Assembly: GCA_009797885.1 (NCBI GenBank)
Contig: WNKP01000005.1
Location: 62,001-126,000 of the forward strand
Reading direction: 5' to 3'
Source of the DNA: Flavobacteriaceae bacterium GF1
GTDB lineage: Bacteria; Bacteroidota; Bacteroidia; Flavobacteriales; Flavobacteriaceae
Length of the DNA: 64,000 nucleotides
Both the position numbers and the translations under genes were made by a program. The notes beneath the pieces were generated by a model. That model did no database searches. It had not been told where the DNA came from and saw only the letters and a list, made by a program, of their open reading frames with translations. Shown here piece by piece: positions 34,847 to 49,874 of this stretch (its first letter is position 1; each line of letters begins with the position of its first letter).

Positions 34847-35620
34847 ATGAATAAAATCATTACCATAGTGTCAATTCTAATCTTGGGGCCATTTTTGGTC
34901 CTTGGTCAAAAATCAATTCAGGCAAGCGACATCGAGATCCATACGCAACTGACTTTCCTAAAAGTGTCCCATCGGGATGTTGTAAATTTTGAACGCGATA
35001 TGGGGCTATTGCGCAAGTTGTCAAAAGAGGGGAAGCTTGAGGAGCACTTTGATTGGCTAACGTACAGGTCCGATACCGACCAATACCTCATTATAAATTT
35101 CAGCAATGGTCTTGACGATATTTTGACCCTTGAAGGTTATCGAAATGCCTTCCATGAAAAAGGGACTGGAGAAGCATTTGATGCCCTGATAAAATCTATG
35201 GCAGACCTCAATATCTCAGTGGAAAGGAATTACATTATTCAAATGCTATTGCCCTGGAGTACTGTTGCCGCCATATCGGTATCCGAATTTCCTTTGGCCA
35301 CAATGACGGAATATGATATTCCAACCAATACCATTGAACAATTTGATGTTGCAATGCGGCAATTGGTGGCATTGCTCAAGAAAACGGATTACCCCTACCC
35401 CTTGGAAAGTAATAGGGGAAGCATTGGCGCATATGGTACCATGGCCCTGGTATGGTTTTATGATGATCAAGACGATTATATGGGGAAAAATAATCTTTTG
35501 AACTGGATGGAAAGGCATGGTGCCACACAAACGTTGCAATCTATTGTGAATATGCTTGATAGCATTAGTGAATCAACCAGGACGTATAACCTCAGGTATG
35601 AAAAATCATTGAGTTATTAG
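34847..35620 (+). CDS. Exported protein of unknown function
   Basis: The 257-residue protein has a signal peptide ('IVSILILGPFLVLGQ'). The mature part resembles two repeats of a small alpha-beta domain with 'DQYLIINFSNGLDDI' and 'YGTMALVWFYDDQDDYMGKNNL', perhaps a ferredoxin-like or NIPSNAP-type dimeric barrel, but this is a guess. It is the last gene of the P1 peptidase-amidohydrolase operon, 16 bp after the amidohydrolase. Confidence 0.75.
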   Translation: MNKIITIVSILILGPFLVLGQKSIQASDIEIHTQLTFLKVSHRDVVNFERDMGLLRKLSKEGKLEEHFDWLTYRSDTDQYLIINFSNGLDDILTLEGYRNAFHEKGTGEAFDALIKSMADLNISVERNYIIQMLLPWSTVAAISVSEFPLATMTEYDIPTNTIEQFDVAMRQLVALLKKTDYPYPLESNRGSIGAYGTMALVWFYDDQDDYMGKNNLLNWMERHGATQTLQSIVNMLDSISESTRTYNLRYEKSLSY

Positions 35621-35927: not shown

Positions 35928-38900
35928 TTAGAGGATATCCGTGGTTTCAAACAGTTGTTTAAATCTTTGTTTTTCAGCGGTTGGAACCGCATTCAATACT
36001 TTTTGGTAAAAGTCTTTAAAAACTTTGGGCTTTTCAGGATCTGTATTTCCAAATTCCTTGAGTAGCGTATTAAACCTTTGACCGCCTATGGATTCCATCA
36101 TTTCATACAGTGCAATGGCTCCTTTATTCTCTTCCATATAATCCGTACCATCCGCATAGATTAGGACGGGTTCGGTGTTGGGTTCGTTGTTTTTGTCCTT
36201 GGCATACTTGTCGGTTTTCTTTTCAATAAGCAGATTAACCGCCTCTTCACCTAAGTTCCCTTTTACAAATTGAAGGCCCAGGGCCTCCGGCAGACCCAAC
36301 ATAAACATATCTGCACCTTGTACATTGGCAATGGTCAGCTTTTTTTGCAACCATAGTTTGGCCAATCCACTACCAATAGTTTGGTAGATATAGGCTTTTT
36401 CCTGTAGGCCTTTGGTATTTGCCACCCATCCTTCTTTTTCGGAAAGGGCAATGGTGTTGGCGAAAGTATACCTATCGTCTTGCCAACGGTGTATTTCTAT
36501 CAACTGTAACTGATTTTCAACTGCATTTGCACCAAATTTGGTTTCCATAAAGGCAACCCCTTTTTTAATAGCTTCTTGATATAGCGCTATATTAAAAGCA
36601 TGTGTAGGTTTGTACAAAATGGAATAAGCTACCTTGTCTGCTTTTCCCTGGAAAACGGTATAATCCGATGAACCTACATACCAATTGAACACTTGAGGGC
36701 TATCCACCATATATGTCGCTACGGTCCGGCCATTCTTGGTTTCCATTTTTTGTAAAACTCCCGCTGCAAACGGTATTTGTCCTTCTTCGGTGCTAATGGT
36801 CAGCTTACCGGTCACCCTATCGGCATCTGTGGTATAAGCATTTTGGCTTAGCGCGAAGACGTCGTCTATGCTTGCCATTCTGGAATCCAACCGGGTGAGG
36901 CCCTGTTCTTGGCGTTTACGGTTTTCCAACAATTCCTTGTCACTATCATAACCAATTACGGGCAAAAATTCCTGTACACTGCCAAAGCTTCCTTTGTTTG
37001 TTAAATCTGCCTGAAAATCACGCTGTACAAAACCTATATATTGCTTGGTTCCCACCAATGAAAGCTGCAACAAACTGTCTTTTTGTATGGCTTTCGGAAT
37101 TCGATAGGCAGTCAGGTTTTGCTCGGCGTCCGCTTTTGCGATAGTCAATTCCCGTCCGTTGAGCTTTATGTTGGTCAATTGGGCAAAATCCTTGGTATTC
37201 AGAAATAGGGTATCCACCCCTTTTTTATTGTTCAACGTAATATCCGCAGAAAATTCGGCCCTTCTTTCCAAAGGAAAAAGGTCCAGTTTTAGTGCTACCG
37301 TTTCATATTTGGGTTGCGGTTTGGTTTCCAAGTATTTGTACTTCTTCTCATACTCGGCATCCAACCTTTCTTCTTCCGCTTCTGGGACAAAGTTTCCGTT
37401 CTCATAGACATTTTTGGTAATGAAGGACATTAAAAACAAAAACAGCCCTAAAAACGCAACCATCACAACTTTGGAAACCAAACCGAGTTGCATGTTCCTT
37501 AGGGAAAGTCGGTTTTTCCATTTTTTGTCCGAGCCCCGTTTCCACAGCCAAACCCCAGCCATAACCAGGGTAATGCCCAATGCCAGCCACAATAGGAAAA
37601 ACCAATTGGCCGATTGTTGAAATATGCCATACCCACTTGTTTCGGAAAAATCCTCTATCCCAGGGGTAAAACCATAACCGAGTCTTAAATCTTCAATAAT
37701 ACCCATATCAAAGGAAACCACCAGGAAAATAAAAAAACCAACACAAAGGAGATGGGTGAGTATCCGATGGCTCGTCAAAGCCCCCACAAAAAACACCAAC
37801 GAGGCCCAAAGCACAAAATTCAGAAAGGCCCAGCGGTAGAGTAAGAGGTCTTCTGTGAACCTTCCCAATTCTATGTAGGAAGCACCGCCCAACAATACCT
37901 GGGTAAAGAGTGAAACCAAAATAAAGCTTAGACTTAAGATAAAAGATAGTCCAATAACGGCCGCCAATCGTGAAAGTTGGGTTACCCAAACGGGTACGGG
38001 CAAAGAATCCGTTATTTGCCAGATATTCACCGTTTTGTCCTTAAAGAACAGCTCACCTGCCCAAATCATGATCAACATGTTGACAAAAACACCCCATTGC
38101 AGTCTAAAAAAGGTCATATTGCTACTAATGGGATGTTCATTACCAATGTAGTAGGCAGCATTCCAAGTAACGTTTTGCATAAAGACCATCAATAAAATAA
38201 TCCCCAAAATTATTTTGAAGGAGGTAGGACGAACAATGTTCATGAGCTCCAATTTTGAGAGCGACCATAGTTTGGTCAAAAAATTGGGCACCCGATATTG
38301 TTTCACCACCTCAGGTAATTTTATGGATGCAGCAGAGAATACCACTTTCTTGTTTTCCTTGATTTTTTTGGATTTATCGGTACCTGCCTGTATAAAATAT
38401 TTAAAGGAAAACCTAACATATGATGCTATGGCGAGTATAAGGGCCAGCCCCATCCAAAGCAGCCTGTTCTGTAAAACATAGCCGGAAAGGGTGAAGAGTT
38501 CCGTGTTTTTCTGTGCCGGTGTCAACAATTCTGTGTAGTGCTGTGCGGCCACATACCCGCCGGAATCGGCCAAAATATAGGCTATTATATTATCACCACC
38601 ACCGGTCTCATAAGAGGTCTGTGCAATTAAAAAGATGATGACCACCAAAAAAACGGCCAAATAACTGGTTGCAATTTTTCTGGTAAATACTATGGAAAAG
38701 AATACCAGGGCCACATAAAAAAACAGATTGGGAACGGTAAACATGATCCAACCGTGAAATAAGGGTCCCCATTGCGTAGGACCAAAACGGCTTGCCTCCC
38801 CTATACCGGAATAAGGCACCAATAAATGTCCAACAATCATACCCGTGCTTAGAATGACCAAGTACAGGAAGGCGGCCAAAAACCGGCCAACAAAAAACTG

Positions 38901-39197
38901 TTTGTCACTGATAGGCATGGCATATGTCCATTGCGCCGATTTATATCTTATATCCTTATACAAGACCCCGCCTGTGGCAATGGCGATGATAATGATCATT
39001 AGCATGCCCATTCCGGCGTAGTTTCGGTACAGTATACTGGAGGCATTCATCAATACCCCTTCATTGGCAAAAAAATCGAATGAACCCTTGGTGTACCAAA
39101 TCATCTGAAACGCCAACATGAGAAAGAAAATAAGGGTCACCCAACTGAATATGCGCTGTTTGAGCTCGTTTTTTAGTATGGATACTATTGTTTTCAT
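35928..39197 (-). CDS. ABC-2 type permease fused to a degenerate M1-peptidase-like domain
   Basis: The protein has 1089 residues. Residues 1-about 600 hold about a dozen transmembrane helices in two ABC-2 permease halves, each starting with 'NELKQRIFSW'- or 'SKLELMNIVRP'-type cytoplasmic segments. After about 625 a soluble part follows the layout of M1 aminopeptidases: beta-rich N-domain ('YETVALKLDLFPLERRAEF'), then the catalytic-type domain. The HExxH zinc motif expected at 939-943 reads QTIGS, and the GxMEN motif is also absent, so it cannot be a normal zinc peptidase. It is the last gene of the seven-gene operon, 1 bp after its ATPase. It may export a substrate, with the extracellular domain as a binding module. 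Confidence 0.9.
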   Translation of the reverse strand: MKTIVSILKNELKQRIFSWVTLIFFLMLAFQMIWYTKGSFDFFANEGVLMNASSILYRNYAGMGMLMIIIIAIATGGVLYKDIRYKSAQWTYAMPISDKQFFVGRFLAAFLYLVILSTGMIVGHLLVPYSGIGEASRFGPTQWGPLFHGWIMFTVPNLFFYVALVFFSIVFTRKIATSYLAVFLVVIIFLIAQTSYETGGGDNIIAYILADSGGYVAAQHYTELLTPAQKNTELFTLSGYVLQNRLLWMGLALILAIASYVRFSFKYFIQAGTDKSKKIKENKKVVFSAASIKLPEVVKQYRVPNFLTKLWSLSKLELMNIVRPTSFKIILGIILLMVFMQNVTWNAAYYIGNEHPISSNMTFFRLQWGVFVNMLIMIWAGELFFKDKTVNIWQITDSLPVPVWVTQLSRLAAVIGLSFILSLSFILVSLFTQVLLGGASYIELGRFTEDLLLYRWAFLNFVLWASLVFFVGALTSHRILTHLLCVGFFIFLVVSFDMGIIEDLRLGYGFTPGIEDFSETSGYGIFQQSANWFFLLWLALGITLVMAGVWLWKRGSDKKWKNRLSLRNMQLGLVSKVVMVAFLGLFLFLMSFITKNVYENGNFVPEAEEERLDAEYEKKYKYLETKPQPKYETVALKLDLFPLERRAEFSADITLNNKKGVDTLFLNTKDFAQLTNIKLNGRELTIAKADAEQNLTAYRIPKAIQKDSLLQLSLVGTKQYIGFVQRDFQADLTNKGSFGSVQEFLPVIGYDSDKELLENRKRQEQGLTRLDSRMASIDDVFALSQNAYTTDADRVTGKLTISTEEGQIPFAAGVLQKMETKNGRTVATYMVDSPQVFNWYVGSSDYTVFQGKADKVAYSILYKPTHAFNIALYQEAIKKGVAFMETKFGANAVENQLQLIEIHRWQDDRYTFANTIALSEKEGWVANTKGLQEKAYIYQTIGSGLAKLWLQKKLTIANVQGADMFMLGLPEALGLQFVKGNLGEEAVNLLIEKKTDKYAKDKNNEPNTEPVLIYADGTDYMEENKGAIALYEMMESIGGQRFNTLLKEFGNTDPEKPKVFKDFYQKVLNAVPTAEKQRFKQLFETTDIL

Positions 39198-39198
39198 T

Positions 39199-40068
39199 TT
39201 AATTTTCGCTTAAGATTTTAAAGTAGGCATCTTCCAGCGATGGCGCTTTGACATCAAACCCTCCGGAAGGCATATCATCTGCCATCACCGTAATCATCAA
39301 TTTACCGGCAAAAAAACGTTGGGAAATCACCTTAAATTTTTCTTGATACGTTGTGAGTTGATCTTTTTTAATGGGCATCTCATAGAGTTTCCCCCGCATG
39401 GCCTCTTGCACTTCATCCGGTTTACCGGTTAGCACTACTTCACCATTTCCAATAATGGCCATATCGGAACAAAGGGTACTGACGTCCTCTACAATATGGG
39501 TGGAAAGTATGACCACAGCATTTTCGCCCAATTCCGACAATAAATTGTAGAAGCGATTACGTTCCATAGGGTCCAGACCGGCGGTAGGTTCATCAACAAT
39601 AATCAATTCTGGATTGCCTACCAAGGCCTGGGCAATACCAAAACGTTGCTTCATTCCGCCAGAATAACCATCCAATTTTTTAGTTCTAACATCATAGAGG
39701 TTCACTTTTTGCAACAGGGCCTCCACCGTCTCCTTGCGTTCCCCTTTATGTACTATACCTTTCATGTCGGCGATATGCGTCAGCAACTCTTCGGCCGTTA
39801 CATTAGGGTATACCCCAAATTCCTGTGGAAGGTATCCAAGTGTCTTTCTTAGTGCTTCAGGGCTTTTTAGAACATTAATTTCATTAAAATTAACATCACC
39901 TGAATCCGGATCTTGTAAAGTTGCGATAGTGCGCATTAAAGTTGATTTTCCCGCACCGTTTTGGCCCAAAAGCCCAAACATGCCCTTTCCAACGCTCAGG
40001 GAAACATTTTTAAGGGCCTGCACCCCATTAGGATAGGTTTTTGAGAGGTTTTTAATTTCTAGTTTCAT
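39199..40068 (-). CDS. ABC transporter ATP-binding protein
   Basis: The protein has 289 residues. Walker A 'GQNGAGKST' (35-43), signature 'YSGGMKQR', Walker B 'LIIVDEPTAGLD', and an H-loop His in 'LSTHIVED'. The type is that of ABC-2 exporters (CcmA/DrrA-like). It is 1 bp from the permease/M1-like gene, so the two form one transporter. It probably exports something, since such ATPases pair with ABC-2 permeases, but substrate and direction are not shown by the sequence. Confidence 0.96.
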   Translation of the reverse strand: MKLEIKNLSKTYPNGVQALKNVSLSVGKGMFGLLGQNGAGKSTLMRTIATLQDPDSGDVNFNEINVLKSPEALRKTLGYLPQEFGVYPNVTAEELLTHIADMKGIVHKGERKETVEALLQKVNLYDVRTKKLDGYSGGMKQRFGIAQALVGNPELIIVDEPTAGLDPMERNRFYNLLSELGENAVVILSTHIVEDVSTLCSDMAIIGNGEVVLTGKPDEVQEAMRGKLYEMPIKKDQLTTYQEKFKVISQRFFAGKLMITVMADDMPSGGFDVKAPSLEDAYFKILSEN

Positions 40069-40106
40069 AGTATTTCGTTGTTATACATTATTGATGGTTT
40101 CTTGTT

Positions 40107-41492
40107 TTACGTATCATCATCATTCGCTTGGACCTGAGGCAATTTTTCATTCCCCAATCCCTGAAAACTTTTATAGACGATATAGCCCAACCATAGGGTG
40201 ACCACAATGTCAATCAAGGTGGAACCATAGTAAACCCCGCTAATGCCCATCCACCTGGGAAGCAAAAGCATCACCGGGACATAGAATATCAATTGTCTGG
40301 CTATTCCAATAATACTGGCATATTTAGGCTGTTCTATGGCAGGCAAATGGGTAAGGGCCATAAACACAAAGGGGAGAAAAGGAATAATGGCCATATATAC
40401 CCTAAAATCAATTAGTTCCGAGTTTGTCATTACCTTATTGGGAAGTACCATTTGAATACCCAGTTCTGGAAATAGCATCAGGAACAACCAGAAAGGCAAG
40501 ACCAACCAAAGTCCGGTTTTGCAGAAAAGAAAAAATCCTTTCCTGACTCGGCCGTATTGTTCTGCTCCAAAATTTACCCCCACAACGGGCTGAAGGGCAC
40601 GCATCAACCCAAATAACGGGGTCATTAAAAAAAGTAGAATGCGATTGGCTGCAGCAAAAAAGGCCAAATCTTCATCCGTACCGTAATCTACAACTGCATT
40701 AAAAACCACTATCGCCTGAATCAGGCCCATTAAGCTCAGTATAAATCCAGGGAGTCCTAACTTCAGAATGGCTTTAAAGACTTCGCCATCATAAAGAATA
40801 GCGTTGATATTTGACTCAAAGGAAGCGCTGCCCCTTACAAAATAGAGATAACCCACCACGCAATACACTAACATTCCAATGTTTGTGGCCCATGCGGCAC
40901 CATCCACATCCATATGCAGATGGATAATGGCCAAGGGTGTTAAAATAAGGTTGACCACCAAGCCATAGGCCATAAATACAGCGGCGGTCATCATTTTACC
41001 TTCCGCACGAACGATCATATTGAGTTGTAGGCCGAAGACCCAGAGCGGGAAAGCCAGCAGCGTAATCTTAAAATAGCGCAAACCATATTCCAAAATCTCA
41101 CCCGAACCGCCCATCATCTCTATCAAAGGAGTAGCAAAAATGTAACAGGGAATGGCAAAAATAAGACTACTTATTAGGGTAAAAAGTGTTGCATTTGGAA
41201 TGATTTTTTTTAAGGCTTCACTATCATCTTTGCCCAATAGCACGCTCAAGTGATTCCCTGCTCCAGTTCCTACCCATGCACCTACTCCCATAGCCATTGA
41301 GGTGAGTGGGTAAGCCAATGCTACACCAGCCAGGGCCGTTTCGTTAAGCAGTTGACCAATATAAATAGTATCCATAAAGGCATTCAAACCATAGAGTACC
41401 ATGGCTAAAATTGCTGGTAAGGACAACTTCCACATGACTTTGGTCAAGTTGCCATTAAGGATAAATTCTTTTTGGTCTTTGGTTTGGTTCAC
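40107..41492 (-). CDS. MATE family efflux transporter
   Basis: The 461-residue protein has 12 predicted transmembrane helices in two similar halves and the family's N-terminal 'MWKLSLPAILAMVLYGLNAFMDTIYIG' spread over helix 1. MATE proteins export cationic compounds, drugs or siderophores using Na+ or H+ gradients. It lies between the SAM methyltransferase (23 bp upstream) and the ABC ATPase (38 bp downstream) in the same operon, so it may export a product modified by the methyltransferases (inference). A drug-resistance role is the main alternative. Confidence 0.95.
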   Translation of the reverse strand: MNQTKDQKEFILNGNLTKVMWKLSLPAILAMVLYGLNAFMDTIYIGQLLNETALAGVALAYPLTSMAMGVGAWVGTGAGNHLSVLLGKDDSEALKKIIPNATLFTLISSLIFAIPCYIFATPLIEMMGGSGEILEYGLRYFKITLLAFPLWVFGLQLNMIVRAEGKMMTAAVFMAYGLVVNLILTPLAIIHLHMDVDGAAWATNIGMLVYCVVGYLYFVRGSASFESNINAILYDGEVFKAILKLGLPGFILSLMGLIQAIVVFNAVVDYGTDEDLAFFAAANRILLFLMTPLFGLMRALQPVVGVNFGAEQYGRVRKGFFLFCKTGLWLVLPFWLFLMLFPELGIQMVLPNKVMTNSELIDFRVYMAIIPFLPFVFMALTHLPAIEQPKYASIIGIARQLIFYVPVMLLLPRWMGISGVYYGSTLIDIVVTLWLGYIVYKSFQGLGNEKLPQVQANDDDT

Positions 41493-41515
41493 TTTATGCC
41501 TTTACTTGTGATTTT

Positions 41516-42202
41516 TTAGTTAGTAAGTTTTTGTGTAATCCATCCACTATAAATAGTGGTTTGAAAAAAACGTGTAGGGGATTTAAAACCTGCACGTTCC
41601 AATAATTTCCGTAACTCCTCTTCTGAGGTACGGTGTAAGGAATTTGTTATTCGTTCCAGTCGTTCCTCAATTTCTTTTTCGCTCAAATCATTTGGCAATA
41701 AGGACTCCAGAACTTTAAGATTGCCCCTAAGCTGTTCCCGATTTCCAAATATTCCCATGATAACGAAGGGGGCTCCGGGTTTCAGTCGTCTTTGAATTTC
41801 CCTAAGCAATGCCAGCTTTTCATTGGGGTATTTGATAAAATGTAGCACTAGGATGAGCGTAGCTGCACCAAAAAGCTTTTGGTTTTCAAGTTGCCCCACT
41901 TCACCAATAAGGAATTCAACCTCTTCATAGGAAGCCAACTTTTGTTGGGCAAAGTGTATCATTTCGGGGGAGGGATCGACTCCCTTAATGTACCATTCCC
42001 CATCAAATTCCTTTAAAGCAATCAGTTCGTTGCCTGTACCACATCCTACTGCCAACATCGTTTTTTCCGATGCCTTGGCCAATAGTTTTGGAAAGGTGGA
42101 CATGAAGTACTCATAGTTGGGTATCCACTGTTGTACAAAACTATCGTAATTGGCGGCCCGCTCTCCTTCAAAAATAACTAGATCTTTTTCCGTTGTTTCC
42201 AT
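41516..42202 (-). CDS. Class I SAM-dependent methyltransferase
   Basis: From the ATG at 42202 the protein has 228 residues. SAM-binding motif I is 'LAVGCGTGNE', followed by the acidic loop 'GVDPSPEMI', 'LILVLHFI' (motif II) and 'RRLKPGAPFVIMG'. The start overlaps the stop codon of the ICMT-type gene as TAATG, a sign of translational coupling; a longer frame to 42391 would run deep into that gene and is rejected. It is soluble and cytoplasmic. The acceptor is unknown. Neighbours (TonB receptor, MATE, ABC exporter) suggest a small transported molecule. Confidence 0.92.
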   Translation of the reverse strand: METTEKDLVIFEGERAANYDSFVQQWIPNYEYFMSTFPKLLAKASEKTMLAVGCGTGNELIALKEFDGEWYIKGVDPSPEMIHFAQQKLASYEEVEFLIGEVGQLENQKLFGAATLILVLHFIKYPNEKLALLREIQRRLKPGAPFVIMGIFGNREQLRGNLKVLESLLPNDLSEKEIEERLERITNSLHRTSEEELRKLLERAGFKSPTRFFQTTIYSGWITQKLTN

Positions 42203-42792
42203 TAAAATAGTTTGGGAATTAAACGTTTTGTTTTTTGTTTGTAGACTTTGTACTGTTGGCCAAATTGGATTTCCATCATTTGCTCCTCTTTTGCAACCCT
42301 TAGAAAATACAACACCCCAAAACTGATGAGCCCGGATAGTCCAGCGATATAGTTTTGCAACAAAAGTGCTTGGCAAATGACCCAAAGCCAAATTGCGGTG
42401 TACATGGGATGCCTAATATGTTTATAGATTCCAGAGCTTACCAAAGTATGTTCGTCCCTTATTTCCAAGGTGGCGGACCAGTTTTGTCCAAGGTCGCGGT
42501 GCGAACGATAAAACAGCATCATTACTGGAATAAGCATTATCAAACCAAAAATTCCCCAAGCATTTGGCAAATGGTAGTCTGCAAAGCTGAACCAAGGGGT
42601 AGCCACGTAAACAATGGGAAGTAACAACATACCCAAAGATGTGAGGGCCAGGGTAAATTTTTCAATACCGTCCTTTTTGTCTGATACAATGTTATTTTTC
42701 TTGTTTTGTTGGGCAAAGGGGTATCGTATAATGAACATGCATATCCAGAAAACCATAAATGATATTTCAAATACCAAGCGCATCATATCCAT
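42202..42792 (-). CDS. ICMT/PEMT-like membrane methyltransferase
   Basis: The 196-residue protein has about five transmembrane helices. The C-terminal half has the ICMT/phospholipid-methyltransferase signature: 'GIYKHIRHPMY', then after a hydrophobic helix pair 'AKEEQMMEIQFGQQYKVYKQKTKRLIPKLF' (split by motif). Homologs methylate lipids, prenyl-Cys or small hydrophobic molecules using SAM. It overlaps its upstream DoxX-like neighbour by 10 bp and its downstream methyltransferase by 1 bp, so the three are translated together. The substrate is unknown. Confidence 0.9.
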   Translation of the reverse strand: MDMMRLVFEISFMVFWICMFIIRYPFAQQNKKNNIVSDKKDGIEKFTLALTSLGMLLLPIVYVATPWFSFADYHLPNAWGIFGLIMLIPVMMLFYRSHRDLGQNWSATLEIRDEHTLVSSGIYKHIRHPMYTAIWLWVICQALLLQNYIAGLSGLISFGVLYFLRVAKEEQMMEIQFGQQYKVYKQKTKRLIPKLF

Positions 42793-43199
42793 GAGTTTTC
42801 TTTTTTAAGCAATACCGTTTTCCATTCGTTATACCTTCCAAATAGGAGAAAAAGGTTCAACGCCAACATTAGACTATCAAATAGGATAAATGGGGGATAT
42901 CTTGAAAAAAACACATGGGTCATCAACAAACAAAGTATCAATGGTACCAGCATGATGCTGCCCAAGAGATAGGTCCGCCGGAATATCAGTAATAAACCGC
43001 ACAATAATTGAAAAAAGCCTACAAAATAGAGATAGCCCGAGCCCTGCAATAAATCATAATAGGTGAAAAATAAGGGGTGAGCCTCAGCGGCATCCGTTCT
43101 AAACACCGATGGGTCGTACGGCAGGAACAGCTTTTCTATCCCCGCGTAAATAAAAAGGAAGGCCAAAAGGAATCGTATAATGTAGGCTACTATGCGCAT
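42783..43199 (-). CDS. DoxX-like four-helix membrane protein
   Basis: The 138-residue protein has four transmembrane helices, with the N-terminal 'RFLLAFLFIYAGIEKLF' typical of DoxX/MauE-type proteins and a conserved second helix 'FVGFFQLLCGLLLIF'. The family is linked to thiol or redox reactions at the membrane but is poorly understood. It lies between the TonB receptor (4 bp) and the ICMT-like gene (10-bp overlap). Confidence 0.85.
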   Translation of the reverse strand: MRIVAYIIRFLLAFLFIYAGIEKLFLPYDPSVFRTDAAEAHPLFFTYYDLLQGSGYLYFVGFFQLLCGLLLIFRRTYLLGSIMLVPLILCLLMTHVFFSRYPPFILFDSLMLALNLFLLFGRYNEWKTVLLKKENSWI

Positions 43200-43203
43200 T
43201 GAT

Positions 43204-45606
43204 TTAAAACTTACCGGTTAACGTAGCGCCGTAGGTTTGTGGTAGCCCATAAGAGGCAAATATACCGGAACCGCTTACGGAATAGCCATAGCTCAAGTAG
43301 GTTACGTCCGTTAGGTTTTTTGCCCAAAGTGCAAATTCCAAATTTTTTGACCCCAGTACCAATCTACTATTCAACAATCCGTATGCATCTTGACTTGATG
43401 TATTTTCGGGATCGAAAAAGACCTCGGACTGAAATTGATAGTCCACAACAATGGAACCTTTCCACTTTTTGTTCAAATTGGTCGTATAATTGACCCCAAG
43501 GCTACCGCTCCATTCTGGGGACATTACTTGCATATTTCCCTCGTTGTTGATTTCAACCCCAGTGAACCCGATATAGGTATAATCCGTAAATTCCGTCTTT
43601 AAATACCCCAAATTCCCGACAAGGTTGAGTCCATTGGCCAAAATGAACTCCGTTTCCAACTCCACACCATAGCTTCTGGAATTACCAATATTTTCCCTAC
43701 CTATACTAAAGGTGGTAAGGTCAAGTACATTAAAGAGCTGCTGGTCGGTGTAGTCGATATAGAAAAGAGTGGCATTGAGTTTCACCTTATTGTTCCACAA
43801 CATATTTTTTATGCCCAATTCATAATTCCAACTGAATTCCGGATCGAAAGTCGCTCGACTTTCATCGAGAACAAATTCATTGACGCCCCCTGGACGGTAT
43901 CCCCGGGTTACGTTAGCGAATAATAGCGAATTTTCATTGGCTTGATAGCCCAAGCTAAATTTGGGGGAGAAAGCACTAAACTCGGTTTCCTTATCAAATT
44001 CTGCTGGTACGGCACCCAAATTTGGGTAAACAAAATCTTGCCCGTCTTGTTCAAATCTGTTATTGACTTCCAAGCTACTATCTTCAATTTCGTATCGTAG
44101 CCCCGCAGTTGCGGTCAGTTTAGCCGTGAGTTGATAAGAAGCCTGTCCAAATAGGGATAAGCCCGTCTGGCCAATTTCGGTATCTGTGAGCTGGTCGTAG
44201 GGATATTGGGCCGCATCTTCCGGGGGCAGCTCGGGATTAAAGGCATTATCCGCTCCATTTCGTGTTCTTCTATCGCTTTCGTTCGAAACCGAATAGAGAT
44301 ACAGACCCCCTATCCAATCCAATTTACTTTTGGTGTTTGAACTCAATCGAATTTCTTGGCTAATGGTGGACAGGTCCGAATTGTCCGAAGCGACTGCCTG
44401 AATATCCGCGGGAGAAAAATCAAAATCGTCTCCACTTCTATCCAAGTCGGTAAATTGATAAGCTGTAATCGCTTCAATTTTTATTTTATCGTTTGTAAAC
44501 TTAAGATTGAAAGCGTTGTTCAAAATATCCGTGACATAAAGGCCATTGGTATTTTGGGCAACTTGAAAAGGGTTGTTGTTCACGGCATCTTCAATTACTG
44601 TTGCGGTCGCCCCGAATCCTCCAACAAAGGCATAAGCATCCACTTCACGTCTTTCATAACCCGAACTGAATTTAAACAACCAATCATCATTGGCCACATA
44701 GGTCAATTTTAAGTTACCATTGTAGGCTTTTCTCCCTAATAGTTCTGTGTCGTTCAAAAAGGTATTTTCTATGTAACCATCCCGTTCCGTGAGTCCGCCA
44801 TTGATTTTAACAAAGAGTTTGTCCCTTATAATGGGCGTGCTGATTCCGGCCTGTACATCATATTGATTGAGGTTTCCATAACCGGTAGTCACGTATCCCT
44901 TGGTATGGTTCGTTGGGTTTTTACTGATGATGTTGATTACCCCTCCTATTGAATTTCTGCCGTAAAGTGTGCCCTGTGGTCCTTTCAAAATTTCAATACG
45001 TTCTATATCCCCGAAATACGAGGGAAACGAAGACACATTAAAAAGGGGCACATCGTCAACATACACTCCAACGACCGGTGTCGCATCTATAGTGGTAATA
45101 CCTCTTGTGGAAACGAGGGGAAAGGAGCCTCCTCCGTCATCGTAGGTTCTAAAATTGGATGTAATACGACCAAGTTCGTTGATGTTACCAATCTGAAGAT
45201 CAGCTACCTCTTGTGCATTTGCCACGGATACCGAGGCGGCGGTCTTTTGAACATTTTGTAACCTTCTATTGGCCGCGGTTACGACTACTTCATTAAGTTG
45301 ACCTGAAGTTTTGGCTAAAGCAAAATCCAAAGTAGTGTCCGCGTTCAGTTCTATTTCCTTGGTCACGCTTTGATAACCCAAATAACTTACTTGGATAAAG
45401 TAGTTTGATGCAGAAATATCACTCATGGTAAATTCACCATCCATATTGGTCGAGGTTCCCCTACCCGTGCCCAATAAAAGCACATTGGCCCCAAAAACAG
45501 GTTGGTTGTTTTCATCGGTGACTTTTCCTGAAATTGACACAGTTTCTTGTGCTTTAGCTGCAAATGCAAAGAGCAGCACAAAACAACTTAGGTGTAGTAT
45601 TCTCAT
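43204..45606 (-). CDS. TonB-dependent receptor
   Basis: This is an 800-residue outer-membrane receptor. Signal peptide (1-20, cut near 'AKAQ'), a carboxypeptidase-like regulatory domain (22-100, 'ISGKVTDENNQPVFGANV'), a segment 'NEVVVTA' (105-111) at the start of the plug, the plug domain (about 115-235, with 'LKGPQGTLYGRNSIGGVINI'), and a 22-strand-type barrel ending in 'TLTGKF'. It lacks SusC-type features and has no SusD partner, so it resembles siderophore, vitamin or metal receptors more than glycan receptors. It is the first gene of the operon of transport and methyltransferase genes. Confidence 0.95.
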   Translation of the reverse strand: MRILHLSCFVLLFAFAAKAQETVSISGKVTDENNQPVFGANVLLLGTGRGTSTNMDGEFTMSDISASNYFIQVSYLGYQSVTKEIELNADTTLDFALAKTSGQLNEVVVTAANRRLQNVQKTAASVSVANAQEVADLQIGNINELGRITSNFRTYDDGGGSFPLVSTRGITTIDATPVVGVYVDDVPLFNVSSFPSYFGDIERIEILKGPQGTLYGRNSIGGVINIISKNPTNHTKGYVTTGYGNLNQYDVQAGISTPIIRDKLFVKINGGLTERDGYIENTFLNDTELLGRKAYNGNLKLTYVANDDWLFKFSSGYERREVDAYAFVGGFGATATVIEDAVNNNPFQVAQNTNGLYVTDILNNAFNLKFTNDKIKIEAITAYQFTDLDRSGDDFDFSPADIQAVASDNSDLSTISQEIRLSSNTKSKLDWIGGLYLYSVSNESDRRTRNGADNAFNPELPPEDAAQYPYDQLTDTEIGQTGLSLFGQASYQLTAKLTATAGLRYEIEDSSLEVNNRFEQDGQDFVYPNLGAVPAEFDKETEFSAFSPKFSLGYQANENSLLFANVTRGYRPGGVNEFVLDESRATFDPEFSWNYELGIKNMLWNNKVKLNATLFYIDYTDQQLFNVLDLTTFSIGRENIGNSRSYGVELETEFILANGLNLVGNLGYLKTEFTDYTYIGFTGVEINNEGNMQVMSPEWSGSLGVNYTTNLNKKWKGSIVVDYQFQSEVFFDPENTSSQDAYGLLNSRLVLGSKNLEFALWAKNLTDVTYLSYGYSVSGSGIFASYGLPQTYGATLTGKF

Positions 45607-45786
45607 TTGAAAGGTTGTTATTTAAAATTGGTCTAAATTAAAATAATTTTGTTCAACAAGACCCTATTTATAGTTTTTTCTTTTTGTTGAATTGGAATTA
45701 GCCGCTTGGACAAAGTAGATATGGACCCATAGGCATGAGTCTTACTCTCCGCAATAGCTAAATCCTGAAAATGTTGAAACGATATC

Positions 45787-46092
45787 TTAGGAAAAGAATA
45801 AGGGCGGAGGCCTACAGTGACAGTTGGCTATCCTTTTTTTGTTTTTGTACCGCGTGGTGGCGAAAACCAACTTCTCCGCGAAAAGAATTTCTGGTCGGAA
45901 CAGTTCGAGGCCTTCCACTGGAGTACTAATCCCCTCCAATTCAAGTGCATCACTAACCAGCAGGCAATTCTCGCAGGGCGTATCGGAATGCTCCGGGGAA
46001 TCGTGATGTTCGCAAACATGGAATGCCGAAATCTTAATCAGAAGTACACCGATTAGGATAGTGGGCCAGAAATACCGAACTATGGCTTTCAT
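45787..46092 (-). CDS. Small Cys/His-rich exported protein, likely metal-binding
   Basis: The protein has 101 residues. An N-terminal membrane anchor or signal ('FWPTILIGVLLIKIS') is followed by a metal-ligand cluster: H25, C27, H29, H30, H35, C40 and C43, with two more Cys near the end ('CHCRPPP'). The C-terminal RPPP resembles small proteins found beside heavy-metal efflux or uptake genes in Bacteroidota. The reading frame is uncrowded, 66 bp after mog and 180 bp before the TonB receptor gene. The metal, perhaps zinc or copper, is inferred only from context. Confidence 0.8.
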   Translation of the reverse strand: MKAIVRYFWPTILIGVLLIKISAFHVCEHHDSPEHSDTPCENCLLVSDALELEGISTPVEGLELFRPEILFAEKLVFATTRYKNKKRIANCHCRPPPLFFS

Positions 46093-46158: not shown

Positions 46159-46710
46159 TTATGACCCCTTCTTCTTTAAACCTTGACCGGGCCGAAATAC
46201 CTTCATGGCCTCTGGATTTGATTCCAGATAAGGTCCCCCAATCAAATCGATACAGTACGGAATGGCTGGAAATACCGCTTCCAAACATTCCCGAATGGAT
46301 TTTGGTTTGCCCGGAAGGTTTATGATCAATGTACTTCCTCGGATTCCAGCCGTTTGACGGGAAAGAATGGCGGTAGGTACATATTGCAAACTCACCTGCC
46401 TCATCTGCTCGCCAAACCCGGGAAGTAGTTTTTCACAAACGGCAATGGTGGCTTCCGGTGTCACATCCCTTACGGCCGGTCCTGTGCCGCCTGTCGTTAC
46501 GATTAGGGCACAGGCCTTGTTATCGGCCATATCGATCAATTCCTTTTCCAGTAGGTCCTGTTCATCGGGAATGACCGCGTACTCCGCTTCCCAAGGACTG
46601 GACAACCACAATTTCAGCAGTCGTTGCACCTCCTGGCCGGGTAAATCTTCATATTCGCCTCGACTAGCACGGTCTGAAACATTGATAATGCCAATTTTTG
46701 CTTTTTCCAC
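46159..46710 (-). CDS. mog: Molybdopterin adenylyltransferase Mog
   Basis: The 183-residue cytoplasmic enzyme adenylates molybdopterin before molybdenum insertion. The sequence follows E. coli MogA closely: 'IGIINVSDRASRGEYED', 'TTGGTGPAVRDVTPEAT' with the catalytic Asp, 'PGFGEQMRQ', 'PTAILSRQTAG' and 'LPGKPKSIRECL'. The length is normal. It has its own promoter (46734-46762). No other molybdenum-cofactor gene is in the window, so its place next to a zinc module is curious. Confidence 0.94.
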   Translation of the reverse strand: MEKAKIGIINVSDRASRGEYEDLPGQEVQRLLKLWLSSPWEAEYAVIPDEQDLLEKELIDMADNKACALIVTTGGTGPAVRDVTPEATIAVCEKLLPGFGEQMRQVSLQYVPTAILSRQTAGIRGSTLIINLPGKPKSIRECLEAVFPAIPYCIDLIGGPYLESNPEAMKVFRPGQGLKKKGS

Positions 46711-46733
46711 TTATCCTCAACTTTAGAATTCAA

Positions 46734-46762
46734 CAAAAGTATCATTGTTGTGATGGTACAAA
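46734..46762 (-). promoter_or_regulatory. Promoter of mog (TTTG-N17-TACTTTTG)
   Basis: On the minus strand TTTG (46762-46759) is followed after exactly 17 bp by TACTTTTG (46741-46734), both fitting the Bacteroidota -33/-7 consensus. The start codon of mog is 24 bp beyond the -7 element. This is one of the two best promoters in the window. Confidence 0.7.
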
Positions 46763-46811
46763 AACGAAAAGAAACAAAAATTCAGTTGCTTTTCTGACTT
46801 TATTCGGCTTA

Positions 46812-46860
46812 ATGGTTGATGGTTAATGGTTAATGGTTAATGGTTAATGGTTTATGGTTT
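46812..46860. repeat. Tandem heptamer repeat, 7 copies of ATGGTTN
   Basis: Seven consecutive 7-bp units: ATGGTTG once, ATGGTTA four times, ATGGTTT twice, 49 bp in all. The unit length is not a multiple of three and the array is non-coding, between the COG0523 gene and mog. Copy number could vary by slippage and change the spacing upstream of the mog promoter. Confidence 0.9.
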
Positions 46861-46965
46861 TTCACCGATCACCTAGCGTTAAGCATCACTAAAAACTGGT
46901 CATTTGTCTTAAGCCAAGGATTTATTGAAATTAATTACGGTCAAAATCGATGGTACGTTTGATCT

Positions 46966-48189
46966 TTATTCCAATGCATATGCCCTGTTTACTGGCCATT
47001 CATCATCATATCCCACCATCCACTTTCGTGATGCAAGTTCGTTGTCCGTGGCCAAGCATGCATCGAGATCTGCCCGTATAACGGCTTCATCCATATCCTG
47101 ACCTATGAATACGATTTCATTTTTCCGGTCCCCAAAGGTTTTGTCCCAATTTGATTCAATATGTTCTTGATTCTCCAAAAACACCAAATACTCCGCCCGT
47201 TTTTGAAAAGGCATACTGCTCCACCAGACCCCGGCGCCATCAGTCCTTAAAGATCCTCCCGCTTGGCCCCACACCAAGGCTTGTTCGGGTCGTGAAGCAA
47301 TCCAAAACAGCCCCTTACTACGAATGATGGTAGTTGGAAATCGATATTGTACATACTGCCAAAAACGTTCTGGATCAAAAGGCTTTCTGCTTCGATACAC
47401 AAAGGAACCAATGCCATACTCCTCGGTTTCGGGGGTATGTTCTTCCTTTTTGAGTTCCTCGATCCAACCGGCACTTTGCTCCGCCTCCTCAAAATTGAAA
47501 AGCCCGGTATTGAGTACGTCTCCAGGGCTTACTTTTCCAAAGTGGGATTCAATGATACGGGCGGAAGGATTCAACTTGGCAATGGTCGCATGTAAGATTC
47601 CCAAATGCTCTTCGGACACCAGGTCTGTTTTATTCAGAACAATGACATTGGCAAACTCTATCTGATCCGTTAGTAGGTTTACAATGGTACGATAGTCACC
47701 CTCCATATCCGTAAGGTCCCTATCCATTAAGGTTTCCGGACTGCCAAAATCCTTGAAAAAATTGAAGGCGTCTACCACAGTAACCATGGTATCCACATAA
47801 CTGAATCGGGAGAGGTCGATGTTGTTCTCCTCATCGACAAAGGAAAAAGTCTGGGCGACCGGCACGGGTTCGCTGATGCCCGTACTTTCAATAAGCAAAT
47901 AATCAAATCGATTTTCCTTGGCCAAACGCTCAACTTCCACCATCAAATCCTCCCTAAGGGTGCAGCAAATACAGCCGTTGCTCATTTCCACCAGCTTTTC
48001 CTCCGTACGGGAAAGGGTGTTTTCGCTCTTTACCAATTCCGCATCCACGTTGACCTCGCTCATATCATTTACGATCACGGCAACTTTCAAGCCCTCCTTG
48101 TTGTGGAGAACATGGTTTAGCAAAGTGGTCTTTCCTGCGCCTAAAAACCCGCTCAACACGGTTACGGGGAGTTTCTTTTCTGTTTCCAT
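46966..48189 (-). CDS. COG0523 (CobW-type) GTPase, putative zinc metallochaperone
   Basis: The protein has 407 residues. Walker A 'GFLGAGKT' (14-21), the metal motif CxCC as C73-I-C75-C76, '[15 protein letters not shown]', and 'NKTD' for guanine specificity; then a CobW C-terminal domain ('[14 protein letters not shown]'). G3E GTPases of this type (ZigA, ZNG1) deliver zinc to clients during zinc shortage. It is 137 bp after DUF1826 on the same strand and near a Fur-family gene, which supports a zinc-limitation role. A bulged hairpin lies in the upstream gap, so expression relative to DUF1826 may be tuned. Confidence 0.93.
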
Positions 48190-48326
48190 ATCTTCTTAAT
48201 TATCCAACTATTTTTTAACATCCAATGTTCCCTGTCCACAGGAACTTCTATTTTTGTACATTTTTTATCCGGTCAATTTTGCATCCCGCAAATGAGCTTG
48301 TTGCCCTCTTTTTTGTTTAAGGAATA

Positions 48327-48971
48327 TCATATCGGAAGATTCAGGGATTGATTGGGGTCGATACTAAGCAACAATCGTTCTTCACCGCTTTCTTCAATGT
48401 TTGGACTGCGGTGCAAAACAGGGGTTGAGTCCGGATATAGGGCACCTTTTAAAACCACTACATCCCCAGTGGCAACCTGCTGAATAAGACTTTTGTCAGG
48501 CACAATATTTTGATTGCCTTTTCCGCTTAGATAGGCTTTTCGATCAACGGCGTTCTCAGGTAGCCATAACGTACCTGGCCCATAATAGGTGCAAAGCATT
48601 CTGAGTTCATTATTGTCCGCATGGAACCTGGAGCACATATTGGTGCTTACGGTGGCCAGTGAAACGCGGAAAGAAGATACCTTGGTCACTTGTTGGAACA
48701 ATTCCAAAAGATTTAAAATGTCCCCCAATAGGCCCACATGCTCCGGAAGTACATTGGTCAAATAAGAGCTAAGGGAAAATATGATTTCTTCCACTGTACC
48801 ATTTGCCCGGCATTCCATCGGTCGTTTGGCGACTTGGGCAAGCTCCCCCTTCAATTGTGTTATCCCACGTCGGTAAACGGCGAGATTCTTGGTTTTCAAG
48901 TGAATGTCCTGTAATATGCTTACATCGGTGCCAATTGCGGCATGATCATCCAAGGTGTTGATTGGTGTCAT
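48327..48971 (-). CDS. DUF1826 protein
   Basis: The 214-residue protein shows the DUF1826 core 'CSRFHADNNELRMLCTYYGPGTLWLPE' (in two pieces) and 'GDVVVLKGALYP' with a downstream His in 'VLHRSP', a layout like a cupin with possible metal ligands (H in 'FHAD', H in 'LHRS'). DUF1826 genes commonly sit beside COG0523 genes in zinc-starvation regulons; the biochemical role is unknown. Its ATG overlaps the stop of the MerC-like gene by 4 bp (ATGA), so they are co-translated. Confidence 0.9.
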   Translation of the reverse strand: MTPINTLDDHAAIGTDVSILQDIHLKTKNLAVYRRGITQLKGELAQVAKRPMECRANGTVEEIIFSLSSYLTNVLPEHVGLLGDILNLLELFQQVTKVSSFRVSLATVSTNMCSRFHADNNELRMLCTYYGPGTLWLPENAVDRKAYLSGKGNQNIVPDKSLIQQVATGDVVVLKGALYPDSTPVLHRSPNIEESGEERLLLSIDPNQSLNLPI

Positions 48972-49402
48972 TGATCGGTGTTTTCAGCGGTGACTTTCAT
49001 CCTGGATTTTTTACAATGGCGATGGTTATACAAATGGGCTATAACCAAGGTAATGGAGCCAACATACATGAACCATATCCCGTGGTGGAAATGAAAGCTC
49101 TCGGATAAAAGCCCAATGGCAAAAATGCTCCATGCCCCCCATAAAACCCTCTTAATACCAGTATGGTCGGTATGTCTTGCAGAATACCAAACCGCGGCCA
49201 GACTCAAGACCAGAAAAAGGTAATCCAATAGCGCCCAAAAACCGGGGCCATGACTATGCTTGCCCATGGCGGTCTCCAAAACCGGTCTAGCGGCAAAGAA
49301 CACGGGGGTCAGGGCACAATGAATAGCGCAAAGGCCACTGGCCGCTGCCCCGAGGAAGTCGGAATAACCTAATTTTTCCATTTGCCCTATACTGCGCATC
49401 AT
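48968..49402 (-). CDS. MerC domain membrane protein
   Basis: The 144-residue protein has four transmembrane helices and, in the first, the metal-ligand motif 'GLCAIHCALTPV' (Cys-x3-Cys), typical of MerC mercury/metal transporters. In Bacteroidota such genes are usually tied to zinc response, not mercury. The C-terminus is basic with His residues ('YNHRHCKKSRMK'). It is the first gene of MerC-DUF1826-COG0523 and is preceded by two operator palindromes. Confidence 0.9.
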   Translation of the reverse strand: MMRSIGQMEKLGYSDFLGAAASGLCAIHCALTPVFFAARPVLETAMGKHSHGPGFWALLDYLFLVLSLAAVWYSARHTDHTGIKRVLWGAWSIFAIGLLSESFHFHHGIWFMYVGSITLVIAHLYNHRHCKKSRMKVTAENTDQ

Positions 49403-49421
49403 GTATTTTTATGGTCTTAAA

Positions 49422-49436
49422 TGCAACTGAGTCGCA
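49422..49436 (-). promoter_or_regulatory. Imperfect Zur-type operator, site 1
   Basis: TGCAACT-G-AGTCGCA is an inverted repeat with one mismatch, the same core as the perfect palindrome at 49456-49478. It overlaps the -7 element (49435-49442) and the likely transcription start of the MerC gene, where a bound repressor would block RNA polymerase. Confidence 0.6.
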
Positions 49437-49464
49437 AAAATAAACAAACAATTTGTTATTGCAA
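49435..49464 (-). promoter_or_regulatory. Promoter of the MerC-DUF1826 operon
   Basis: On the minus strand TTG (49464-49462), a 19-bp spacer, and TATTTTTG (49442-49435) fit the Bacteroidota consensus. The ATG at 49402 lies 32 bp beyond the -7 element. Both putative operators overlap this promoter. Confidence 0.65.
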
Positions 49465-49478
49465 CTCAGTTGCAATAA
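49456..49478. promoter_or_regulatory. Perfect 23-bp palindrome, probable Zur operator
   Basis: TTATTGCAACT at 49456-49466, a central C, and its exact complement at 49468-49478. Fur-family repressors bind such odd-length palindromes. It lies 9 bp before the ATG of the Fur-family gene and over the -33 element of the divergent MerC promoter, so one site could control both directions. Confidence 0.75.
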
Positions 49479-49487
49479 ATTTACGGC

Positions 49488-49874
49488 ATGGGAATAATTC
49501 GAAGGACCAAGTCGGTCAAGGCATTGCTCAATGAATTTGTGCAGACCAAAATGGCCCTGTCCACAATGGAACTGGTGGAACGGCTGCATCACCAAATGAA
49601 CAAGTCCACGGTCTACCGGATTCTTGAGCGTTTGGAAGATGATGGTATCCTGCATTCGTTTGCCGGAAAAGATGGACTTACTTGGTACGCACTATGTAAC
49701 AACAATGGTTGTTCGCACCAGCAACATAGGGATACCCATCCGCATTTTCAGTGTCGGGATTGTGGCAAAACGGAATGCCTGCCCATTAGTATTCCTATTC
49801 CAGAGGTTGCGGAACACCGCATAGATTCCGTCTCCCTTTTGTTGATAGGGAAATGTGCCGATTGTATTTCCTAG
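49488..49874 (+). CDS. Fur family regulator, probably Zur
   Basis: The 128-residue protein has an N-terminal winged helix (about 5-60, recognition part 'MNKSTVYRILERLEDDGIL') and a C-terminal dimerisation domain with two structural-zinc CxxC pairs (C89/C92 and C123/C126) and the metal-site region 'HRDTHPHFQC'. It represses metal genes when the metal is bound. Assignment to zinc is by context: COG0523, DUF1826 and MerC are divergent from it, and a perfect palindrome overlaps its own leader. It could sense another metal. Confidence 0.9.
   Translation: MGIIRRTKSVKALLNEFVQTKMALSTMELVERLHHQMNKSTVYRILERLEDDGILHSFAGKDGLTWYALCNNNGCSHQQHRDTHPHFQCRDCGKTECLPISIPIPEVAEHRIDSVSLLLIGKCADCIS

Follow-up and report, generated by a model that had tools for sequence, protein, structure and literature searches.

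The window examined here, a stretch of 64,000 nucleotides from Flavobacteriaceae bacterium GF1 (assembly GCA_009797885.1, contig WNKP01000005.1, positions 62,001 to 126,000 of the forward strand), carries on its minus strand an operon of seven genes that is headed by a TonB-dependent receptor. We consider it to be, with fair probability, an uptake and processing operon for metallophores of the FyuA/yersiniabactin class, most likely serving a ligand made by others; it would be a known kind of system, FyuA-type metallophore uptake, in a new form. The operon is real, rare and patchily spread. An earlier note on this DNA had suggested that a small methylated metal ligand is secreted and taken up again. 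The metal-ligand part of this suggestion is borne out by the FyuA-like receptor and by the AraC, Fur-family and PepSY_TM neighbours in relatives, whereas synthesis by the organism itself is not supported, none being seen beside the operon.

The genes of the operon are as follows, from the receptor to the permease (SAM, S-adenosylmethionine; ICMT, isoprenylcysteine carboxyl methyltransferase):

43204..45606, minus strand: TonB-dependent receptor, FyuA-like, 800 amino acids, first operon gene; best solved relative 4EPA
42783..43199, minus strand: DoxX/MauE-like membrane protein, 138 amino acids, core gene; Pfam MauE 32.0 bits, DoxX 26.7 bits
42202..42792, minus strand: ICMT-type membrane methyltransferase, 196 amino acids, core gene; NF040696 265.7 bits, cut-off 160
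41516..42202, minus strand: class I SAM-dependent methyltransferase, 228 amino acids, start at 42202, accessory gene; Pfam Methyltransf_12/25/11
40107..41492, minus strand: MATE family exporter, 461 amino acids, accessory gene; Pfam MatE 108.3 bits, TIGR00797 above its cut-off
39199..40068, minus strand: ABC transporter ATPase, 289 amino acids, core gene; Pfam ABC_tran 110.9 bits
35928..39197, minus strand: ABC-2-type permease, 1089 amino acids, with a C-terminal domain of predicted M1 fold lacking HEXXH, core gene; assigned through relatives and an AlphaFold model

All seven genes lie where the earlier note had placed them, and the tight packing (-10 to +38 bp) is real: by the coordinates of the open reading frames (ORFs), the successive gaps are +4, -10, -1, +23, +38 and +1 bp. 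Genes were assigned by Pfam and NCBIfam model searches of the window proteins, which back the labels of TonB receptor, MauE/DoxX, ICMT, class I SAM methyltransferase, MATE and ABC ATPase. The interval first marked out ran to 46092, and its portion at 45607-46092 falls outside the seven-gene operon.

Conservation, rarity and mosaic history

One ICMT scan of genome contigs yielded 17 ICMT loci, among which the order receptor, DoxX, ICMT, (SAM methyltransferase), (MATE), ABC ATPase, ABC permease was found again in six other loci of Bacteroidota, namely L002 and L006 (Croceivirga), L003 (Allomuricauda), L004 (Flavobacteriaceae), L005 (Flammeovirgaceae) and L010 (Cytophagales). Because the order recurs in these six loci, the arrangement is more than chance, and the conservation on which the earlier note had staked its operon holds. 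One should bear in mind that L004 is a contig cut at both ends and 93-99% identical to L006, hence not independent.

With the window included, the receptor, DoxX, ICMT, ABC ATPase and ABC permease are present in 7/7 operons and form the core, while the SAM methyltransferase occurs in five (absent from L005 and L010) and the MATE exporter in three (window, L002, L003). Identity of the DoxX proteins is 57-82% among the operons and 62-82% to the window copy; the ABC ATPase is 74-91% identical to the window copy across all seven. Small extra genes are also seen: L002 and L003 encode a membrane protein of 120-124 amino acids between receptor and DoxX, L003 has an alpha/beta hydrolase as well, and L010 a gene for 119 amino acids. 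Operons with MATE group as a clade (100/98) in the tree of ICMT sequences, nested among those with the SAM methyltransferase (90/88, a branch that is not starred), a nesting with which growth of the operon in steps would be compatible.

Strong ICMT matches (E 1e-30) are scarce: 1 of 299 family genomes has one, this being the window's own, as do 2 of 395 phylum genomes, own included, the second being G445.

The genes of the operon do not share one level of divergence. For the pairs window-L002, window-L003 and L002-L003, the identities are 79, 82 and 88% for DoxX, 71, 71 and 70% for ICMT, 71, 68 and 65% for the SAM methyltransferase, 81, 79 and 81% for MATE, and 47, 49 and 77% for the receptor. 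Since the identity of the window receptor to those of L002 and L003 is far below that of the other operon genes, this receptor has been either exchanged or altered rapidly. The ABC pair comes in two types, one in the window, L002 and L005 and the other in L003, L004 and L006, with L010 separate.

Receptor class, regulation and source of the ligand

Receptors were compared with all solved PDB chains, and the operon receptors covered were those of the window, L002 and L010 (not L003-L006). The best solved match of the window receptor is the pesticin receptor 4EPA, which we take to be FyuA, at 129.8 bits with the next at 61.5; the L002 receptor gives 137.1 bits (next 45.1), and that of L010, although only 30% identical to the window's, 127.4 bits (next 61.6). 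FyuA is the top match, with at least twice the next score, in 3/3 operon receptors compared, and neither of two control receptors (the downstream receptor of L010 and the receptor beside the ICMT gene of L014) lists it. Receptors group mainly by substrate according to Mirus et al. (PMC2771747). Among the 17 ICMT loci a receptor match was found at 10 within the DNA covered, and several of the 7 without one are short contigs. FyuA and YbtP were looked for in PMC8636617 and not found.

A second receptor of the window genome (L044:7704-10100; C9:33706-36060) is 34% identical to the operon receptor; it is preceded by a small Cys-containing protein and stands without DoxX or ICMT.

The surroundings of the sister operons also support a metal-ligand system. 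A divergent AraC-family gene is found in 5/5 sister operons with a full upstream flank, and the proteins are related over their full length (28-83% identity) to each other and are related to the AraC proteins of loci L008 and L012 as well. Between the AraC gene and the receptor, TTCCGTTTTGCGTAG occurs twice in L002, L003 and L006, at a spacing of exactly 21 bp (0-1 mismatch); L010 has the pair at the same spacing with 3 and 1 mismatches, and L005 a single copy with 3 mismatches, so that the tandem box is present in 4/5 operons with an AraC gene and full flank. A TonB receptor or PepSY_TM protein follows shortly downstream of the operon in 3/5 relatives (L002, L006, L010), and a Fur-family gene is near it in 3/5. 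The window operon has neither AraC gene nor box beside it, the best TTCCGTTTTGCGTAG matches within 600 bp having 5-6 mismatches, and an AraC orthologue elsewhere in the window genome is not evident, the best of 34 matches being 29% identical over partial length.

The nearest known system is yersiniabactin uptake (FyuA, YbtA, YbtP, YbtQ), with which the operons share the FyuA-like receptor and, in the relatives, an AraC-family regulator. In cyanobacterial relatives YbtP/YbtQ-like transporters around ICMT are shared as well. In L008 (Leptolyngbya sp. Heron Island J) an AraC gene is followed by a FyuA-like receptor, an ABC gene, ICMT and a second ABC gene; the receptor matches FyuA at 134.8 bits (next 75.4), the first ABC protein matches 6P6I chain A best (547.0 bits, next 436.5), a chain that is the partner of YbtQ and that we take to be YbtP, and the second matches the chain named YbtQ best (535.5 bits, next unrelated 435.9). 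In L012 such a pair, 79% and 75% identical to the L008 transporters, flanks ICMT, with a periplasmic binding protein between the two transporters, and L011 has a YbtQ-like transporter (75% identity). An MFS carrier of L012 scores 182.5 bits against the RhtX/FptX model, under the cut-off and below AmpG. The window operon differs from yersiniabactin uptake in lacking both the YbtP/YbtQ-like pair and AraC, and adds DoxX, ICMT, the SAM methyltransferase, MATE and the ABC-2 transporter with its M1-like domain.

As for the source of the ligand, biosynthesis genes were not seen among the window ORFs in or beside the operon. IucA/IucC was found in 0/7 genomes, most of them metagenome-assembled, against 2/14 control genomes with a match. 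A self-made siderophore was set aside, although other synthesis routes may exist. Condensation domains occur in 6/10 genomes, three of them cyanobacterial, and the window genome has two, only on contig C7 and beside another TonB receptor. That region (L039, C7:44000-63900), together with L040 in the genome of L003, holds a nonribosomal peptide synthetase (NRPS) cluster with two condensation-domain proteins and with methyltransferase-like and phosphopantetheinyl transferase-like genes; in L039 a TonB receptor and a His-rich protein of 154 amino acids stand beside it, and it is possible that the NRPS cluster is a metallophore cluster. Marine cyanobacteria make metallophores of the yersiniabactin class (PMC12210259, PMC11877528). 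The operon points to Bacteroidota that may take such metallophores up, by which metal sharing or piracy becomes testable.

Methyltransferase, permease and a candidate mechanism

The window ICMT passes the threshold of the curated ICMT family (NF040696, cut-off 160) at 265.7 bits. Its profile has 4A2N as best solved match, at 211.6 bits over positions 2-193, which is full length. Its likeness to this prokaryotic ICMT orthologue therefore extends over the whole protein; 4A2N is not known to us to belong to an uptake operon, as the window enzyme probably does.

The 1089-residue permease has no Pfam or NCBIfam match at E 0.01, and its nature is known because relatives at 25-28% identity (2/2 tested) carry ABC2_membrane_4 and Peptidase_M1 and because its AlphaFold model matches M1 enzymes. 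The model covers the C-terminal 500 residues and was built from 6 sequences, with a mean predicted local distance difference test score of 69.1 and a predicted template modelling (TM) score of 0.68. Its best Foldseek match is 7PFS (E 2.6e-17, TM 0.57 by query), and the best 50 of 1053 matches, which are those listed, are all M1 aminopeptidases. By sequence, a search of the domain against PDB gave one chance-level match (E 0.55), and Pfam found no M1 match in the domain of the window or L002 permease. HEVAH is present in 3/3 outside relatives, while HEXXH is found in 0/6 of the operon permeases long enough to include the domain (the L004 sequence is truncated ahead of it). Of the earlier label 'M1-like', the fold is upheld by the model and the zinc-peptidase motif is lost; as modelled, the domain is an M1 fold without the metal site, or pseudo-M1 domain. 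The ABC permease/M1 aminopeptidase fusions of this family share this layout, at 22-29% identity along most of the protein, and match in 45/149 family genomes, own included; the operon permeases differ from the three fusions examined in the missing motif, and the Peptidase_M1 model misses the window copy.

The substrate of ICMT enzymes is a hydrophobic molecule with a cysteine-derived group, whose carboxylate they methylate, and yersiniabactin-class ligands end in a cysteine-derived carboxylate on a thiazoline. The routes known for the release of metal from an imported siderophore in bacteria are reduction, ligand cutting and ligand exchange. With low confidence, we suggest that the operon may work through a methyl ester. 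The receptor would bring in the metal-loaded ligand, which would then cross the inner membrane. On the cytoplasmic side, ICMT would methyl-esterify the terminal cysteine-derived carboxylate and so remove a metal-binding group; the freed metal would stay, and the neutral ester would be expelled by the ABC-2-type transporter and by MATE where present. The SAM methyltransferase may be a second modifying enzyme, added later, and the pseudo-M1 domain may bind the ligand at the outer face of the inner membrane, in a putative binding or structural role. In its general form, likewise of low confidence, the proposal makes bacterial ICMT orthologues metallophore carboxyl methyltransferases: imported phenolate-thiazoline ligands would be esterified at their cysteine-derived carboxylate and so unloaded with neither reduction nor cleavage, and the ester would be cleared by an ABC-2/pseudo-peptidase transporter devoted to this task. 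If true, methyl-esterification would be a further metal-release route, and prokaryotic ICMT enzymes, for which we know of no settled role, would gain a function.

The lusichelins of Lusitaniella coriacea (PMC12210259) offer the closest chemistry. These salicyl-thiazoline metallophores occur in acid and methyl-ester forms, the terminal methyl esters being natural and not extraction artefacts, and are proposed by the authors to be cellular reservoirs as esters; lusichelin C, the free acid, was obtained in association with iron, and its association with copper was observed too. Their cluster includes a TonB receptor, AraC, and ABC and MFS transporters but is, unlike the window operon, biosynthetic, with a proposed ester former, LusM, of another family. 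Import and export of one ligand have been reported for pyochelin-cobalt in Pseudomonas (PMC11481552). In the open-access literature, so far as its text was accessible, a description of the operon was not found, and neither was isoprenylcysteine carboxyl methyltransferase paired with a metallophore.

Several points weigh against metallophore uptake of the FyuA class, or against the ester step within it. The window receptor matches FyuA in two pieces, and at 149.9 bits it is below the cut-off (223.5) of TIGR01783, the siderophore subfamily. Its ligand class, judged by sequence relatives, is likely the yersiniabactin type but not fixed, because FyuA shares its region with catecholate and hexylsulfate receptors and with putative thiamin receptors (PMC2771747). 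The YbtP/YbtQ-like importer pair is not in the Bacteroidota operons read, window included, and since ABC-2 transporters are usually exporters, the inner-membrane import step is left with no assigned gene. ICMT also stands beside a non-FyuA receptor in L014, and ICMT loci with no receptor exist (L034, plasmids). The esterifying of lusichelins is assigned to LusM, not to an ICMT (PMC12210259).

With regard to these other settings, ICMT in G445 (L034:5855-8398) directly adjoins the ATPase and permease genes of an ABC transporter, and the ORFs read there include no receptor. Plasmid copies amount to 35 records, all below 60% identity and mostly from rhizobia, and no TonB receptor is annotated in any of the three plasmid ICMT regions read. 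In two oral Bacteroidetes, Porphyromonas gingivalis and Prevotella intermedia, genes for ICMT-family proteins and SAM methyltransferases are raised when iron is limiting (PMC10434189), though the subfamily may differ. L014 (5900-11194) shows this methyltransferase family in another metal setting: ICMT is flanked by a TonB receptor and a thioredoxin-like gene, and a ZIP transporter and a DtxR-like regulator are nearby. One of the three plasmid regions, from Rubrobacter (L036:4364-11353), combines ICMT and a SAM methyltransferase with a heavy-metal P-type ATPase, a ZIP transporter and regulators of the ArsR/SmtB type.

The zinc module and other readings

Upstream of the operon lie the following features:

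45607..45786, minus strand: region upstream of the receptor, without the relatives' tandem box and without the zinc-module operator
45787..46092, minus strand: Cys/His-rich small exported-type protein, 101 amino acids, neighbour outside the conserved operon; no Pfam or NCBIfam match
46159..49874, no single strand: zinc-type module of Mog, ZigA, DUF1826, MerC (-) and a Fur-family regulator (+), neighbour of the operon
49459..49475, no strand assigned: palindromic operator of the zinc module, TTGCAACTCAGTTGCAA

The zinc module with its facing Fur-family gene and the Cys/His gene are present as the earlier note had described, and this adjacency is the starting point of the best surviving alternative, which we regard as rather unlikely: a metallophore operon that lost its AraC switch and changed its receptor would now serve zinc or cobalt supply beside a Zur-type module, with one ligand both imported and exported. 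The absence of AraC gene and box from the window would fit this version, as would the zinc-binding leptochelins (PMC12210259). So would the Zur-regulated pyochelin-cobalt system of Pseudomonas aeruginosa (PA2911-PA2914, PA4063-PA4066), in which receptor-led import and ABC export are thought to handle one phenolate-thiazoline ligand (PMC11481552); the zinc regulator near the window operon resembles that Zur setting. However, that system consists of two separate operons with a MacB-type exporter, the main text of its paper contains neither 'isoprenylcysteine' nor 'methyltransferase', and the window operon differs in having no Zur site on it.

The operator speaks against the zinc version. The pattern TTGCAACTNAGTTGCAA is found at the MerC/Zur promoter, perfect in the window, L050 and L053 and with 2 mismatches in L054. 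Within the window it matches only there and is absent from the receptor promoter. The earlier note had proposed a search for the operator (49456-49478) before orthologous operons, and it is absent from the operon loci L002, L003, L005, L006 and L010 with up to 3 mismatches allowed. In the genomes of L002 and L006, moreover, the same Mog-ZigA-DUF1826-MerC-Zur module lies elsewhere, apart from the operon, and no receptor or Cys/His gene occurs within the 19 kb read around it; a strong ZigA match was not found in the L003 genome or in the window's genus mate G164. With the module unlinked in two relatives and the operator absent at five operon loci, the suggested tie to zinc limitation is unsupported, and the link of the operon to the module is weak. 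In L050 a homologue (56%) of the window gene at 34847-35620 sits about 3 kb from Mog, an interval that is filled by the operon in the window.

The Cys/His gene directly upstream, which speaks for the zinc version, is also separated from the receptor gene by 180 bp, which speaks against it. Matches to its protein occur in 3/199 family genomes, own included, preceding an ABC gene set (L058) and a TonB receptor (L059); it does not serve to mark the operon. Because a receptor follows a small Cys/His protein in L059 and also in L054, the latter a Zur/MerC/ZigA region, a lineage-specific zinc tie is possible.

Less probable again is import of a non-metal nutrient or signal, such as a thiamin-like or sulfated compound, which the methyltransferases and exporters would modify and clear. 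The hexylsulfate and putative thiamin receptors of FyuA's group (PMC2771747) and receptor scores below the siderophore-subfamily cut-off allow for it, but the AraC, Fur-family, PepSY_TM and siderophore-type receptor genes beside the relatives' operons, and the YbtP/YbtQ-like neighbours in cyanobacteria, argue for a metal ligand. Remodelling of envelope lipid or quinone, of which the earlier note had named the lipid form as an alternative, is very improbable. Here the two methyltransferases would modify membrane lipids, the ABC pair would transport these, and the receptor would be incidental. No evidence was found in its favour beyond a weak ICMT match to the lipid A 1-phosphate methyltransferase model (33.9 bits, far below the cut-off of 325), weak matches of the SAM methyltransferase to UbiE-type models and the receptor-free gene set of G445; against it, a receptor is present in 7/7 operons and the SAM methyltransferase is missing from 2/7. 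Uptake and processing of a FyuA-class metallophore stays the preferred reading.

Some minor observations concern the zinc module itself. A genome-wide one-mismatch scan for operator sites was uninformative, with 12 forward hits against 9 for the reversed control pattern, and next to the other perfect site (C44:80384) no gene of evident metal function is seen. A second ZigA copy lies in a shared gene neighbourhood in the L002 and L006 genomes (L051 and L052), with 89% and 87% identity to that of the window; at most 0.3 kb upstream of it is a Zur-type site, TTGCAACTNAGTTGCAA with 3 and 2 mismatches, respectively.

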